Assembly (NCBI GenBank): GCA_031266915.1
Contig: JAISAB010000017.1
Coordinates: forward strand, 1 to 63,367
Source of the DNA: Rickettsiales bacterium
GTDB taxonomy: Bacteria > Pseudomonadota > Alphaproteobacteria > Rs-D84
Reading direction: 5' to 3'
Length of the DNA: 63,367 nucleotides
Positions 27,420 to 48,177 of this stretch are shown piece by piece. The notes beneath the pieces were generated by a model. That model searched no databases, was not told the origin of the DNA, and worked only from the letters and a program-made list of their open reading frames with translations. A program made the translations under genes and the position numbers. Each line of letters opens with the position of its first letter. Position 1 is the stretch's first letter.

Positions 27420-27818
27420 ATGAATCTTAATTCTATTCTAAAATTCCACCGCAGGGACGCGGTAAACGATATATCGACGATACTGGCCGGCGGACTGACC
27501 AATAAATCAGCACAAAGAAAACTGTATAAAAAAGTCAAAAACAGCTACGTCTGCGTCGACACTGATTCCCGCAAACAGGAAATCGCGCACGAGCTGGGCG
27601 GCGGCGTAATCTATGACATGTCGCTGAGCGCCGTTGTCGACGGATACACAATACGCACAATCAAAAACGACAAAAATTTCGGCGAAGAAATCAATTATTC
27701 CCTGATTATCACGGATGTGAAAAATAACGATGTCGCGACGATGCGCAGGGATTGCGCGCGCAAAATGCACTGTTTGCTGCAACAAAAGAAAAATGCGCAA
27801 ATGTGCATACGCGCATGA
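27420..27818 (+). CDS. Hypothetical protein upstream of tsaB
   Basis: A 132-residue soluble protein with no recognised motif. Visible are a basic N-terminal half (FHRRDAVNDISTILAGGLTN) and a beta-rich middle (YVCVDTDSRKQEIAHELGGG, YTIRTIKNDKNFGEEINYSL). Its stop overlaps the tsaB ATG (ATGA), so translation of tsaB is probably coupled to it. AAAGGAAAGC precedes its own ATG. Function unknown. Confidence 0.6.
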   Translation: MNLNSILKFHRRDAVNDISTILAGGLTNKSAQRKLYKKVKNSYVCVDTDSRKQEIAHELGGGVIYDMSLSAVVDGYTIRTIKNDKNFGEEINYSLIITDVKNNDVATMRRDCARKMHCLLQQKKNAQMCIRA

Positions 27819-29038
27819 TTTTGATTATAAACACATCTTCTACCGGTATTGATTTAGCATTAGGCGCGCACGATATTCAGCCCCCCACCGGCGCACAAGA
27901 CGGTACGCCGACTCCCACGCAAGGGGGGAGTTTGCAGTTGCATCACCCCGTTGGAGTGAATGTAACGCGCGCGGTGCCCCATTTGCACAAACACCAAAAT
28001 ATTTCTGCACGCATACGGAATTTTGCGCAACATATGCGCCGCAATATGACCTTGGCGGAAAAGAAGTTTTGGTATGCGGTCAACAATAAAAAACTCGGCT
28101 TTAAATTTTGCAAACAATATCCGGTAGACGACAAGTATATCGCCGATTTTGTTTGTCTCGAGAAAAAATTAATCGTCGAAATCGACGGCGCCCTGCACTA
28201 TGAAAATAAAAATGACAAAATTCGGACTGAATACTTGCAAAAATTCGGATTCAATGTCGTCAGATTCTGGAATTGGGATATAAATGAAAATTTAAACGGA
28301 TGTTTGAATATTATCGGCGATATTCTTACCAATAACAGCTTTGAAAAACGGCTGGAAGAATTTCATAAAAATATTAATTACCTCAAACTTGATAAAAATA
28401 ACAATGTCGTTCTGCCTGCGACGCAACTCCCCCCCCGCGGGGGAGTAGCAGAGCGGCGCAGTCGCGATGCGGTGGGGGGCTTACCGGCCTCAATCTGCAA
28501 ACATATCGAAACCGCGAAACAATCGCTGGAATTGCCGGGGGCGGTGGAAAGTTTTCTGCGCGAAAATAATTGTTGGTTCACCACTATCCCGGCGGGTGAT
28601 ACCAGCTTCGCCACCTCTTCGCCCGCGAAGGGGATTTCCGCTGTCGGCGTTGTCGTCGGCCCGGGCAGCTTTACCGGAATCCGCTTGGGCATCGCGTACA
28701 CCAAGGGATTGGGAATAGGATTGAATATTCCCGTCGTGCCCGTCAATGCGTTCGAGATTTATTTGGCCGCGACGCCGGACGCGTTTGTCGCGATTGATTC
28801 GGGCCGCGGAGATCTGTTCGTCGCCGCGCATGACATCGCGCCCTGCACTATGGAAATCGACGCCGTCGAAACCAAGCAGATGGAATACCAGCGAACCGTC
28901 GGACACAAGCCTTTTGACCTGGCGGACGCGCTGGCAATTGTCGCGCGCAAATTGGAATCGGAAAATTCAGAACCGGCTGTTCCGATGTACCTGCGCCCAA
29001 GTTACGCCGAGATAAATAATGATAAAAAATCCAACTGA
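27815..29038 (+). CDS. tsaB: TsaB with an in-frame DUF559 nuclease insertion
   Basis: TsaB is the TsaD partner in making the threonylcarbamoyl-adenosine 37 modification of tRNA. Here 407 residues instead of the usual ~220. The TsaB part starts MILIINTSSTGIDLALGAHD and resumes near residue 225 (CKHIETAKQSLELPGAVESF), with the diagnostic ISAVGVVVGPGSFTGIRLG following. Between residues ~22 and ~224 lies a DUF559 domain (MRRNMTLAEKKFWYAVNNKK, FCKQYPVDDKYIADFVCLEK, LIVEIDGALHYENK) bounded by inverted repeats at DNA level. The 609-bp insertion keeps the frame. Whether the host protein still works is unknown. It overlaps rimI by 20 bases. Confidence 0.85.
   Translation: MILIINTSSTGIDLALGAHDIQPPTGAQDGTPTPTQGGSLQLHHPVGVNVTRAVPHLHKHQNISARIRNFAQHMRRNMTLAEKKFWYAVNNKKLGFKFCKQYPVDDKYIADFVCLEKKLIVEIDGALHYENKNDKIRTEYLQKFGFNVVRFWNWDINENLNGCLNIIGDILTNNSFEKRLEEFHKNINYLKLDKNNNVVLPATQLPPRGGVAERRSRDAVGGLPASICKHIETAKQSLELPGAVESFLRENNCWFTTIPAGDTSFATSSPAKGISAVGVVVGPGSFTGIRLGIAYTKGLGIGLNIPVVPVNAFEIYLAATPDAFVAIDSGRGDLFVAAHDIAPCTMEIDAVETKQMEYQRTVGHKPFDLADALAIVARKLESENSEPAVPMYLRPSYAEINNDKKSN
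27878..28486 (+). mobile_element. Palindrome-bounded DUF559 insertion inside tsaB
   Basis: The left arm (AGCCCCCCACCGGCGCACAA, then ACTCCCACGCAAGGGGGGAG) is the imperfect inverted copy of the right arm (CTCCCCCCCCGCGGGGGAGT, then GCGGTGGGGGGCTT). The nuclease-like reading frame fills the space between. The whole unit, arms included, is translated in frame with tsaB, as with palindromic elements known to insert into rickettsial genes. Confidence 0.72.
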
Positions 29039-39164: not shown

Positions 39165-39545
39165 AAAAACACTAGTGCATAGTCATTAGTGCTTAGTTGG
39201 TAGTGATTAGTGCATAGTTAAATACTTCATTATAAAACTATGCACTACTTACTATTTGTTGCTTGCACCCGACATCCCCCAAGAGTTGCTATGCGCGCCC
39301 TGCGCGCAAGCCAACTCTTTCCCCCTTTATCAAGAGGGACAAGAGCTGAACTAAGAAAGACAAGTGACAAAGCAAGTGGGAAAAGTGCTGAACCAATGGG
39401 GATAAGAGTCAAGTCTTGTGCCGATGCGCGGTTCTGGGCGCCGGTCCCAAATTGTTTTACACTCTTTCCCCGCATCTGGCCCCGGCCCCTTTTGTTAAAG
39501 AGGGGTGAAAATCTTGGCAACTATGTTGCCATAGATTTTCGGGGA
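39165..39545. repeat. Repeat block: TAGTG quasi-palindrome and decayed AAGAGTTG palindrome
   Basis: TAGTGCATAGTCATTAGTGC with its mirror (to 39245) is followed by AAGAGTTGCTATGCGCGCCC and AAGCCAACTCTTTCCCCC, a degraded relative of the DUF559 element arms at 46.7 and 47.2 kb, and GGGGTGAAAATCTTGGCAAC. No gene is convincing in 39109-39570. Confidence 0.55.
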
Positions 39546-45457: not shown

Positions 45458-46636
45458 ATGAAAAAGTATTTGCTGTTTGCTGTTTGCCATTTGCTGTTTG
45501 TATCGAATGCCATTGCGTTCGATACCAAGGCCAAGTCCGCGTTTCTGGTCGATTACGATTCCGGCGCGGAATTGTTTGCAAAAAATGCCGACGAATTGAT
45601 GCCGCCGTCGTCGATGGTCAAATTGATGACGCTGGCGGTGCTGTTCGACGCGATTCAGGCGGGCGATTTGACGATGGACGACACGATGCCGGTCAGCGCC
45701 AATGCGGACTATCAAAATCCGACATGGTACCCGGCCAGCAAGATTTGCCTGTCCCGAGGCCAAAATCTGCGTGTCAGTGATGCCGTCATGGGCCTGATAG
45801 TGCAATCGGCCGGCGACGCCGGCGTGGTGGTTGCGGAAAAACTGGCCGGTTCGGAATCCGCCTTTACTGTTAAGATGCAGCAAAAAGCGCGCGACATCGG
45901 CATGCCTTTGTCGACATTCGGCAACGCCAGCGGCCTGCCGAATTCGAACAACCTGATGACCAGCCGCGAACTGGCGACTTTGGGCATGCACATCGTGTCG
46001 CGGTATCCTGATATGTATCCGCTGTTTTCGACCCGGCGCTTTGAATTCGGCGATTATAAAACCGACTGGTGCCGCGAATGGGGACGCACGCATACACTGA
46101 ATTATAACAAGCTGCTGTTCGTCATGCCCGGCGCGGACGGCTTGAAGACCGGCCACACAGACGAAGGCGGATACGGCATGGTGGCAAGCAGCCGGGTCGC
46201 CGGCCGCCGCTTGGTCGCCGTTATCAACGGATTCAAAGGCAAGAATCACACCGCATTGGCCGAAGAGGCCAAAAAACTGCTGAATCACGGATTCGCGACC
46301 ACCGTCAACCGGGTTTTCTATAACGCCGGCGACAAGATTGCCGAAATACCGGTCTGGTACGGCCGTCAAAAGATAGTCATCGCGACCGTTGAAAAAACCT
46401 TCGCGATAACGCTGAAAAAGAATCAGGCGGCGGCGGGCCTGCGCGTTTTGGCGCGCTATGACGAACCGGTCGCCGCGCCGATTAAAAAAGGCCAGAAAAT
46501 CGGCGAAATCTTTGCCGAATTGAACGGCAAGACAATCGCGCGCGCGCCTTTGGTCGCCGCCGCCCGAGTCAACAAAACGCAATTCTTTGGCCGCGTGTTT
46601 AAAAATATTCAGGTCATCTTCGGGGACCGGAAATGA
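45458..46636 (+). CDS. dacC: D-alanyl-D-alanine carboxypeptidase
   Basis: A 392-residue periplasmic penicillin-binding protein (class PBP5/6) that trims the terminal D-Ala of stem peptides. Signal peptide MKKYLLFAVCHLLFVSNAIA. Active-site serine in MPPSSMVKLMTLAV (SxxK, about residue 51). The second motif reads QSAGDAG where SGN/SAN is usual, so the asparagine is replaced by glycine. KTG lies in GADGLKTGHTDEGGYG. The C-terminal PBP5-type domain follows (YNAGDKIAEIPVWYGRQKIV). The operon order mtaB-dacC-[DUF559 element]-holB suggests that an element interrupted the original linkage. Confidence 0.92.
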   Translation: MKKYLLFAVCHLLFVSNAIAFDTKAKSAFLVDYDSGAELFAKNADELMPPSSMVKLMTLAVLFDAIQAGDLTMDDTMPVSANADYQNPTWYPASKICLSRGQNLRVSDAVMGLIVQSAGDAGVVVAEKLAGSESAFTVKMQQKARDIGMPLSTFGNASGLPNSNNLMTSRELATLGMHIVSRYPDMYPLFSTRRFEFGDYKTDWCREWGRTHTLNYNKLLFVMPGADGLKTGHTDEGGYGMVASSRVAGRRLVAVINGFKGKNHTALAEEAKKLLNHGFATTVNRVFYNAGDKIAEIPVWYGRQKIVIATVEKTFAITLKKNQAAAGLRVLARYDEPVAAPIKKGQKIGEIFAELNGKTIARAPLVAAARVNKTQFFGRVFKNIQVIFGDRK

Positions 46637-46677
46637 ACAACCCGCCCTTCAGTATGGGATAATGTTCGTCGTTATTT

Positions 46678-47239
46678 TTACCTGCCCCGGTTACGGGGCG
46701 GGAAAGAGTTGGCCTGCGAGTGTAACGAGCTTGGCAACTCTTGGGTGGGGTAACAACGGCGGCGGCGATGGGAAAATACATGACCAATCACTCGGATAAA
46801 ATAATCCGCGCAAGGGAATTGCGCAAAAACGCGTCAGATGCCGAAATAAAATTCTGGTATGCGATAAACGACAATCAACTTGGGGTAAAATTCCGCCGCC
46901 AGCGCCCAATCGGACCATATTATGCAGATTTTGTTTGTCTTGAACAAAAATTAATTATAGAATTAGACGGCGACCAGCATGCGCGGAACATAAATTACGA
47001 TAACGCGCGAACCGATTATATGACCGAACTTGGGTATAGATTGATACGAATCCAGAACGGTTATATTTACAAGGAACTGGATGCAGTGATAGGGCACTTG
47101 CGCTTGATACTGAATGGTGAATTGGACGCGAACGAATATTTCAAAAGTAAATATTCTTGATTCACCCCACCCAAGAGTTGCCAAGCTCGTTACACTCGCA
47201 GGCCAACTCTATCCCGCCCCGCACAGCGGGTCAGGTAAA
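46678..47239. mobile_element. 73-bp inverted repeat enclosing a DUF559 ORF
   Basis: The left arm 46678-46750 (TTTACCTGCCCCGG, AGAGTTGGCCTGCGAGTGTA, ACGAGCTTGGCAACTCTTGG) is a near-perfect inverted copy of the right arm 47163-47239 (CCACCCAAGAGTTGCCAAGC, TCGTTACACTCGCAGGCCAA). Only a few positions near the tip hairpin differ. The ORF between starts ~30 bases inside the left arm and stops two bases before the right arm. Located between dacC and holB. Confidence 0.82.
46780..47160 (+). CDS. DUF559 endonuclease-like protein
   Basis: A 126-residue protein of the DUF559/Vsr-like PD-(D/E)XK family: IIRARELRKNASDAEIKFWY, VKFRRQRPIGPYYADFVCLE, QKLIIELDGDQHARN (catalytic-type IELDGxxH), and YRLIRIQNGYIYKELDAVIG. 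It is related to the domain inserted in tsaB (RNMTLAEKKFWYAVNNKKLG, IADFVCLEKKLIVEIDGALH). ATG 46780 is preferred (GGGA seven bases upstream). It sits inside an inverted repeat and is probably the enzyme that mobilises or maintains it. Confidence 0.88.
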   Translation: MTNHSDKIIRARELRKNASDAEIKFWYAINDNQLGVKFRRQRPIGPYYADFVCLEQKLIIELDGDQHARNINYDNARTDYMTELGYRLIRIQNGYIYKELDAVIGHLRLILNGELDANEYFKSKYS

Positions 47240-47277
47240 ATATCCCACCTCCGGCACAGCGGGGCAGGCAAATAAAA

Positions 47278-48177
47278 ATGGCACAGAAAAAAAATAACTC
47301 TTATAACTTTCCTCACCCGATGGATAATGATTCATTGGTGGGTCATGACGGCGTGATGCGGGCCTTTCTGGACGCGTGGGAACGCCGCGACATGCATGCG
47401 ATTCATCCCGTATGGATGCTGTCGGGGACCAAGGGCATCGGCAAGGCCACGCTGGCCCACCGCATCGCCCGAATGGTTTACGGCAACGTCAGCGACTTTT
47501 TCGTCATCGATATGGAACGCAACATCGACAAAGACGGCCGCCAAAAGACCGACGGCAAGGTCATTTCCGTCTACACGGTGCGCAAAATGATTGAACGGAT
47601 GCAGCTGTCTTCATCGTCGGGTGGATGGCGCGCCGTTGTCATCGATTCCGTGGACGAGCTGAATTCCGCCGCGTCGAACGCCATGCTGAAATTGTTAGAG
47701 GAACCGCCCGCCAAGACAATTTTCCTGTTGGTCGTTCATCAGCTGGCGAATGTTCTGCCGACTGTGCGGTCGCGGGCGCGCGTCGAGAAAATGTCCCCCT
47801 TATCCATATCCGAACTGCGCGCGCTGTGCGCGAAGTTTCTGCCGGGCGAAGACATCGGCGCCGCGACGCTGCGCCTGGCCAACGGCAGCTTTGGCAAAAT
47901 TGCGAATCTGAAGAAATCCGGCGGCGACGAAATTTACGACGAATTAATCGGATTGTTGGAAAGCCCGCGGAGCAACGCGTCCGACATGATGGCGATGGCG
48001 CGGAAAATCGCGCCGTCCGCGGAACTGCACGGCATATTGCTGGACGCCATCGCACATTTTGGCCTGGCGGATTTGTACCCTGCCGCCGCAGTCGGCATAG
48101 CGGACATCAGCCGCATTTACCTGGAACCTGAAATCGCCCTGTTTAAAATAATCAACGATATAAAAAAGTCGCTATAG
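47278..48177 (+). CDS. holB: DNA polymerase III delta-prime subunit
   Basis: A 299-residue clamp-loader subunit of the AAA+ superfamily. The P-loop region is WMLSGTKGIGKATLAHRIAR, the Walker B-like site VVIDSVDELNSAASNAMLKL LEEPP, and the sensor/SRC-like segment is VLPTVRSRARVEKM. These features (NAMLKLLEEPP, VRSR) are typical of HolB. Together with HolA and DnaX it loads the sliding clamp. tatD follows after a divergent small gene, the usual holB-tatD neighbourhood. Confidence 0.9.
   Translation: MAQKKNNSYNFPHPMDNDSLVGHDGVMRAFLDAWERRDMHAIHPVWMLSGTKGIGKATLAHRIARMVYGNVSDFFVIDMERNIDKDGRQKTDGKVISVYTVRKMIERMQLSSSSGGWRAVVIDSVDELNSAASNAMLKLLEEPPAKTIFLLVVHQLANVLPTVRSRARVEKMSPLSISELRALCAKFLPGEDIGAATLRLANGSFGKIANLKKSGGDEIYDELIGLLESPRSNASDMMAMARKIAPSAELHGILLDAIAHFGLADLYPAAAVGIADISRIYLEPEIALFKIINDIKKSL

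Follow-up and report, generated by a model that had tools for sequence, protein, structure and literature searches.

The window, by which we mean the whole stretch of DNA analysed (63,367 nucleotides), belongs to a 1.09-Mb assembly of 26 contigs and carries, in the 641-bp interval between dacC and holB, a single gene for a DUF559 nuclease lying between two long inverted arms (Table 1). This pair of arms (46673-46751 and 47164-47242) is the strongest inverted repeat of the region. Aligned over 46678-46751 and 47164-47240 the arms are identical at 70 of 77 positions (91%), with an almost perfect inner part, and the open reading frame, which ends with a stop codon at 47158-47160, lies entirely inside the loop as the sole gene there. 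A preliminary description of this DNA had reported a near-perfect inverted repeat enclosing a DUF559 gene between dacC and holB, and both the arrangement and the naming of the neighbouring genes proved correct. A chance inverted repeat was considered and rejected, as the local score of the arm pair is 63, and 287 windows of identical geometry from the rest of the 63 kb average 9.6 and never exceed 30.5. The nuclease gene likely begins at the ATG at 46780, which is preceded by GGGAAAATAC; the listed TTG at 46741 falls within the arm. Terminal inverted repeats of the kind that mark MITEs and IS-type elements are hence present, and a further partial arm end between the element and holB is possibly the remnant of another insertion.

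Table 1. Features of the dacC-holB interval and of a second DUF559 element in the window.
Feature	Position	Strand	Remarks
Second DUF559 element, in frame inside tsaB	27815..29038	+	DUF559 at 28013-28318, bounded by C/G-rich palindromes
dacC	45458..46636	+	D-Ala-D-Ala carboxypeptidase (PBP5-type), intact, upstream neighbour
Left arm	46678..46751	+	hairpin 1, hairpin 2, then G tract; repeated elsewhere in the genome
Left-arm hairpin 1	46681-46702	+	CCTGCCCC-GGTTAC-GGGGCGGG
R1 tract	46695..46702	+	GGGGCGGG; read directly from the sequence
Left-arm hairpin 2	46705-46742	+	AGAGTTGG...CAACTCTT
Left-arm G tract (distal tract R2)	46743-46750	+	GGGTGGGG
DUF559 nuclease gene	46780..47160	+	126 aa; domain at 46804-47103
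Right arm, inverted copy	47164..47240	-	plan as in left arm; hairpin 1 at 47235-47213, G tract at 47172-47165
Extra partial arm-end copy	47260..47277	-	CGGGGCAGGCAAATAAAA; between element and holB
holB	47278..48177	+	DNA polymerase III delta', intact, downstream neighbour

The smaller hairpins that the preliminary description had placed within each arm number two per arm, and both are backed by compensatory changes. In 14 aligned arms of the same genome 97% of the cells are paired and 23 changes affect both sides of a pair, compared with only 0-2 such both-side changes in controls in which the pairing was slid by 1-3 columns. The source genome yielded 16 distinct full arms of 69-71 nt, which are modular, as variants of hairpin 1 and hairpin 2 combine freely. 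Their plan is a pyrimidine tract, a loop, a purine tract (R1), a second hairpin and a second purine tract (R2), and in the window arm R2 (GGGTGGGG) is the mirror image of R1 (GGGGCGGG) except for a T opposite a C. Across DUF559 loci R2 is closer to the mirror of R1 than to R1 itself (257 versus 146 cases where R1 is not symmetric), with a mean match of 0.81 to the mirror, 0.77 to the direct sequence and 0.68 to shuffled sequence. An intrastrand triplex motif (TM) is defined by a Y-R1 hairpin and a mirroring R2, and the window arm meets this definition with an extra hairpin in between. The TM/TMECO sequences of Holder et al. 2015 (PMC4666352) have the same Y-loop-R1-R2 core in which R2 mirrors R1, e.g., CCCTCTCCC..GGGAGAGGG..GGGTGAGGG, whereas the window arms have another sequence and the inserted second hairpin; no mobility gene was reported near triplex motifs in that study. 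That the window arm would form a triplex is an inference from its sequence alone. Two other classes of palindrome were noted in the source genome. One, a second arm type in which a GCGCGC hairpin accompanies CCCCCTT..AAAGGGGG, has a copy at 39278-39323 of the window, recurs at many other places of the genome beside a GATTTTC-type hairpin and constitutes a separate gene-less palindromic family. A third class consists of TTGTCATTGCGAG...GCGGCAATCCAG-like sequences that lie beside arms and resemble CGTC-type REPs.

The arms are dispersed. Searching the genome with the left arm returned twelve matches with 86-100% identity over at least 70 nt, two of them in the element itself, along with more distant copies of the second arm type, and on six contigs inverted arm pairs 40-330 nt apart are found with no DUF559 gene between them. 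The site itself is empty in relatives: in six of them holB follows dacC after 0 to ~30 bp, without the element. This check had been proposed in the preliminary description, and it indicates that the element was inserted in the lineage of the window, since loss in all other lineages would be a less simple account. Judged from such comparisons of sequence, mobility of the DNA is well supported. One further relative has a different sequence between dacC and holB, possibly with a small ORF on the opposite strand, and the interval has therefore received inserts more than once.

The gene product is a DUF559 protein (PF04480; E 1.8e-31, 108.7 bits against a curated cut-off of 20.6) with conserved residues E22, D50, E61-x-D63-G-x-x-H67, D74 and R77, of which E22, D50, E61, D63, H67, D74 and R77 are invariant in the alignment. 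Profile searches matched it to a DUF559-like Neisseria protein (PDB 3hrl; E 1e-35) and to I-Bth0305I (PDB 3r3p; E 1.3e-5), and profile comparison identified PvuRts1I as a weak relative. Foldseek matched the predicted structure (pLDDT 88.7) to 3hrl (E 5e-7), 3r3p (E 5e-5) and 1vsr (E 3e-3), each with probability 1.00, so that on the strength of this model the protein would adopt the Vsr/EDxHD nuclease fold of the solved members. Purifying selection acts on the nuclease, with dN/dS at 0.04-0.13 in pairs with estimable dS. In Caulobacter, loss of a cytosine methylase evokes a DNA-damage response that depends on the DUF559 protein VsrA, which acts together with the methylase ScmA and has been read as an enzyme of mismatch repair (PMC12907096). 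This role of VsrA in DNA damage and the matches to I-Bth0305I, 3hrl and Vsr make an active nuclease likely, the substrate of which at the element is not known.

The similarity of fold to Vsr (PDB 1vsr) and the cooperation of VsrA with ScmA could also be taken to mean that DUF559 is a Vsr-like mismatch endonuclease serving host DNA repair, and that the palindromes are merely terminators or mRNA stabilisers. We consider this very improbable: DUF559 is patchily distributed (54 of 113 genomes of one family), several diverged copies occur per genome, the domain is inserted in frame in core genes, and inverted repeats flank both sides of the gene and not just its 3' end. VsrA shares the fold and is linked genetically to DNA damage in vivo, but it has been read as acting in mismatch repair tied to cytosine methylation and not in mobility. 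A palindrome with a terminator or regulatory function only was likewise considered and rejected. We also give next to no weight to the idea of a stand-alone cassette with a nuclease for defence or restriction. In its favour are the small PD-(D/E)XK-type nuclease and the weak relative PvuRts1I; against it, PADLOC returned no match for the DUF559 protein, the neighbours are dacC and holB, and no methylase partner is found in the interval.

Four DUF559 domains are present in the source genome. The copy inside tsaB of the window is common to only one other genome among ~107 with tsaB, and two more copies lie on other contigs, the third in frame inside queA between C/G-rich palindromes and the fourth between long nested palindromes of a different arm sequence. 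A tree was built with 74 DUF559 domains of the family, of which 28 share the reading frame of a host gene, the hosts being QueA (two sites), QueH, TsaB, TruA, RecO and PorA (as an N-terminal extension), with names assigned by reading the sequences; uninterrupted alleles prevail (~105 genomes for TsaB, most for QueH and most for QueA). In other genomes of the phylum, a type I methylase and an asparagine synthase each contain DUF559 in frame. At QueH, a filled genome (G023) and an empty one (G127) have flanking SNPs in common, and ~8 nt of host sequence were apparently replaced rather than duplicated, which counts against the explanation we favour. Neither QueH nor QueA showed a recognisable target-site duplication, a further point against it, and the relatives at dacC-holB are too diverged for an exact junction. 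Derivatives that have lost the nuclease are observed as well: an in-frame palindrome of ~100 nt remains in QueH of G096, a solo arm occupies site 1 in QueA of G116, and QueA of G128 retains a short footprint-like remnant. The source genome's own QueH (C3:65292-65996) has two short in-frame inserts, one of them at the site where relatives have DUF559.

Insertion in frame with the host gene left open over its full length is the mark of elements like the Rickettsia palindromic elements (RPEs), and these sister elements show it, the dacC-holB copy being intergenic. RPEs and CGTC REPs (PMC3733652) are palindromes lying in frame in genes for functional proteins, and short gene-less in-frame inserts of the RPE kind also occur in relatives (QueA of G116 and QueH of G096). 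Unlike them, the element has arms of different sequence without the CGTC tag and a resident nuclease gene; Di Nocera et al. reported no dedicated enzyme for CGTC REPs (PMC3733652). The in-frame inserts translate to little beyond DUF559 and an arm-encoded peptide, no separate scan for Hint domains having been made, and we infer that these copies are not spliced. A group I intron was rejected, as no Rfam match was found in 46500-47500 at E up to 1 and the copies inside genes read in frame. The ShiLan insertion element (PMC11855218), as far as the accessible part of its description goes, is a similar in-frame and apparently non-splicing insertion of a homing-type endonuclease in a functional gene, but its HNH enzyme is out of frame, it resides in a phage, and palindromic arms are not described in that part.

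Clear kinship to I-Bth0305I, an EDxHD homing endonuclease (PDB 3r3p; PMC3943268) whose catalytic domain is homologous by profile and by fold, leads to the main rival explanation, namely that DUF559 is an ordinary free-standing homing endonuclease settling in pre-existing palindromes as fragile sites or safe harbours, while the palindromes multiply by other means such as template switching, slippage or another enzyme. The insertions at the same sites in QueA, QueH and TsaB of different genomes do resemble homing. Palindromes are, moreover, generally known as repair hot spots. I-Bth0305I is, however, part of a mobile group I intron, whereas the element is no intron, has palindromic arms and moves non-allelically. 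Homing would confine spread to the cognate allele, which is not what is observed. One genome (G065) contains four copies with different flanks, 94-98% identical in most pairs over ~680 nt (the lowest value being 90% over a longer stretch), which were copied to unrelated sites as a unit with long terminal inverted repeats; in one of them the left arm bears the second hairpin of the right arm. For one of these copies no clean empty junction was found, the flank being itself repetitive and the relatives too diverged. In the tree of 74 DUF559 domains, in-frame insertions arose in several separate clades, QueA took up insertions from at least three lineages, the labels of its two sites switch repeatedly, and one lineage is present in TsaB, TruA and QueA. 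Single forks of this tree are uncertain because of the few columns available. Multiplication in G065 and the pattern of the tree exceed allele-specific homing, and we regard the homing explanation as unlikely without dismissing it.

Inverted repeats accompany DUF559 well beyond this locus, as emerged from the search for DUF559 genes with flanking inverted repeats that the preliminary description had suggested. Within the family, 64 of 72 loci have an inverted-repeat score across DUF559 higher than that of any of 52 control genes. Among 71 named loci, from several phyla, 79% score over 13, compared with 3.4% for 263 windows taken from these loci. The association is thereby observed across phyla, the records of the named loci coming from Pseudomonadota, Planctomycetota, Bacteroidota, Nitrospirota, Nitrospinota, Zixibacteria and Poribacteria. 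The named loci, 79 in all, were drawn with one central DUF559 protein, and because of this single query the sample is biased towards proteobacteria; the 21% of the 71 loci without a detectable inverted repeat count against the explanation we favour. Most arms at the named loci are CCCTCTCCC/GGGAGAGGG-like "triplex" hairpins. In 399 genomes of the window's phylum (probably Pseudomonadota), mostly draft assemblies, a strong DUF559 match occurs in 47 of the 55 genomes with at least ten CCCTCTCCC hairpins versus 64 of the 344 others (odds ratio 26, p 3e-22), and the association persists when stratified by family (odds ratio 10-20, p ~1e-9). This link is a correlation, and stratification by family corrects only partially for relatedness. 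That hairpin presence follows DUF559 within families speaks against the homing explanation, while the eight hairpin-rich genomes without a strong DUF559 match, of which several are incomplete or match only weakly, speak for it and against a DUF559-driven element. The preliminary description had named what would refute it, namely a palindrome and gene fixed in all relatives, with no empty sites and no association elsewhere. This fails on every count, in view of the empty sites, the patchy presence and the association of inverted repeats with DUF559 in the family and in other phyla.

The system recalls REP/REPIN sequences and their RAYT partners (GTAG REPs; PMC3733652, PMC3116915), which are small and mostly intergenic palindromes occurring singly or as inverted pairs, with an autonomous form in which a single gene lies between the same palindromes. 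From this general likeness to REP/REPIN biology one could argue that IS200/IS605 or RAYT transposases move the palindromes, as in classical REPs, and that DUF559 is a passenger, a proposal that we find scarcely credible. Of the two hallmarks of REP-RAYT systems, a Y1 (HUH) tyrosine transposase and a palindrome with a GTAG tag at its foot, the element has neither, the second being judged on the arm sequences; Y1_Tnp (IS200/RAYT-type) shows no positive association with hairpin presence (odds ratio 0.5), and the source genome has no Y1_Tnp match in spite of its dispersed arms. The comparison with REP/RAYT made in the preliminary description, a likeness in concept with an unrelated enzyme, fits these results, the element's enzyme being a DUF559 nuclease and IS200/RAYT-type transposases not being the partner.

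We think it probable that a mobile palindromic element, of which the dacC-holB feature is one copy, spreads through the action of its own DUF559 nuclease, which also spreads gene-less arms. A self-contained mobile palindrome with a nuclease as its only gene, as first described, is supported by the empty sites, the dispersed arms, the gene-less copies and the other DUF559 copies, cleavage of the arms not having been demonstrated. That DUF559 is the mobilising enzyme, acting on the arms and with a copy step, is inferred from the constant association, the correlated presence and the kinship with homing endonucleases. There is no direct evidence of cutting or binding, and the nuclease as mover remains strongly correlated but unproven. 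Under such a mechanism the nuclease would recognise the arms as hairpins, cruciforms or triplex-like structures, together with a loosely specified target, and would break or nick the DNA, upon which repair would copy the element, or a gene-less arm pair, to a new place. Gene-less palindromes would then be non-autonomous derivatives moved in trans. Inside genes only frame-keeping copies would survive, and the element would therefore persist as an extra loop in TsaB, QueA and QueH, without splicing.

We are evenly divided on whether DUF559 nucleases supply the mobility so far missing for triplex-type palindromes (CCCTCTCCC hairpins and relatives) across bacteria. Such palindromes would then form a class of mobile element in which structured DNA is moved by a Vsr-like nuclease, either together with the nuclease gene or without it, and can also enter core proteins in frame without being spliced. 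The parts are known (the nuclease fold, the palindromes and in-frame palindromes), and the combined system fits no family tested; in the open full-text literature, subscription papers and most preprints being outside the scope, no paper was found in which DUF559 is tied to in-frame insertions or to repeats of the palindromic or triplex kind. If DUF559 does move the class of palindromes that flanks it, one large class of bacterial repeats gains an enzyme, a role is found for a domain of unknown function, and an apparently non-splicing in-frame mobile element puts whole nuclease domains into core proteins.

A TM and a DUF559 gene are also found close together in E. coli K-12, where TM no. 9 in the numbering of Holder et al. 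is separated by 168 bp from the strain's DUF559 gene, ycjD, whose 3' end overlaps with another TM-like hairpin. Partial matches in E. coli were considered as an empty ycjD site and rejected, as they derive from an efflux operon beside fabI. In K-12 the position next to fabI is that of the TM and ycjD; many E. coli genomes have this RND efflux operon, with a TetR-type regulator, there.
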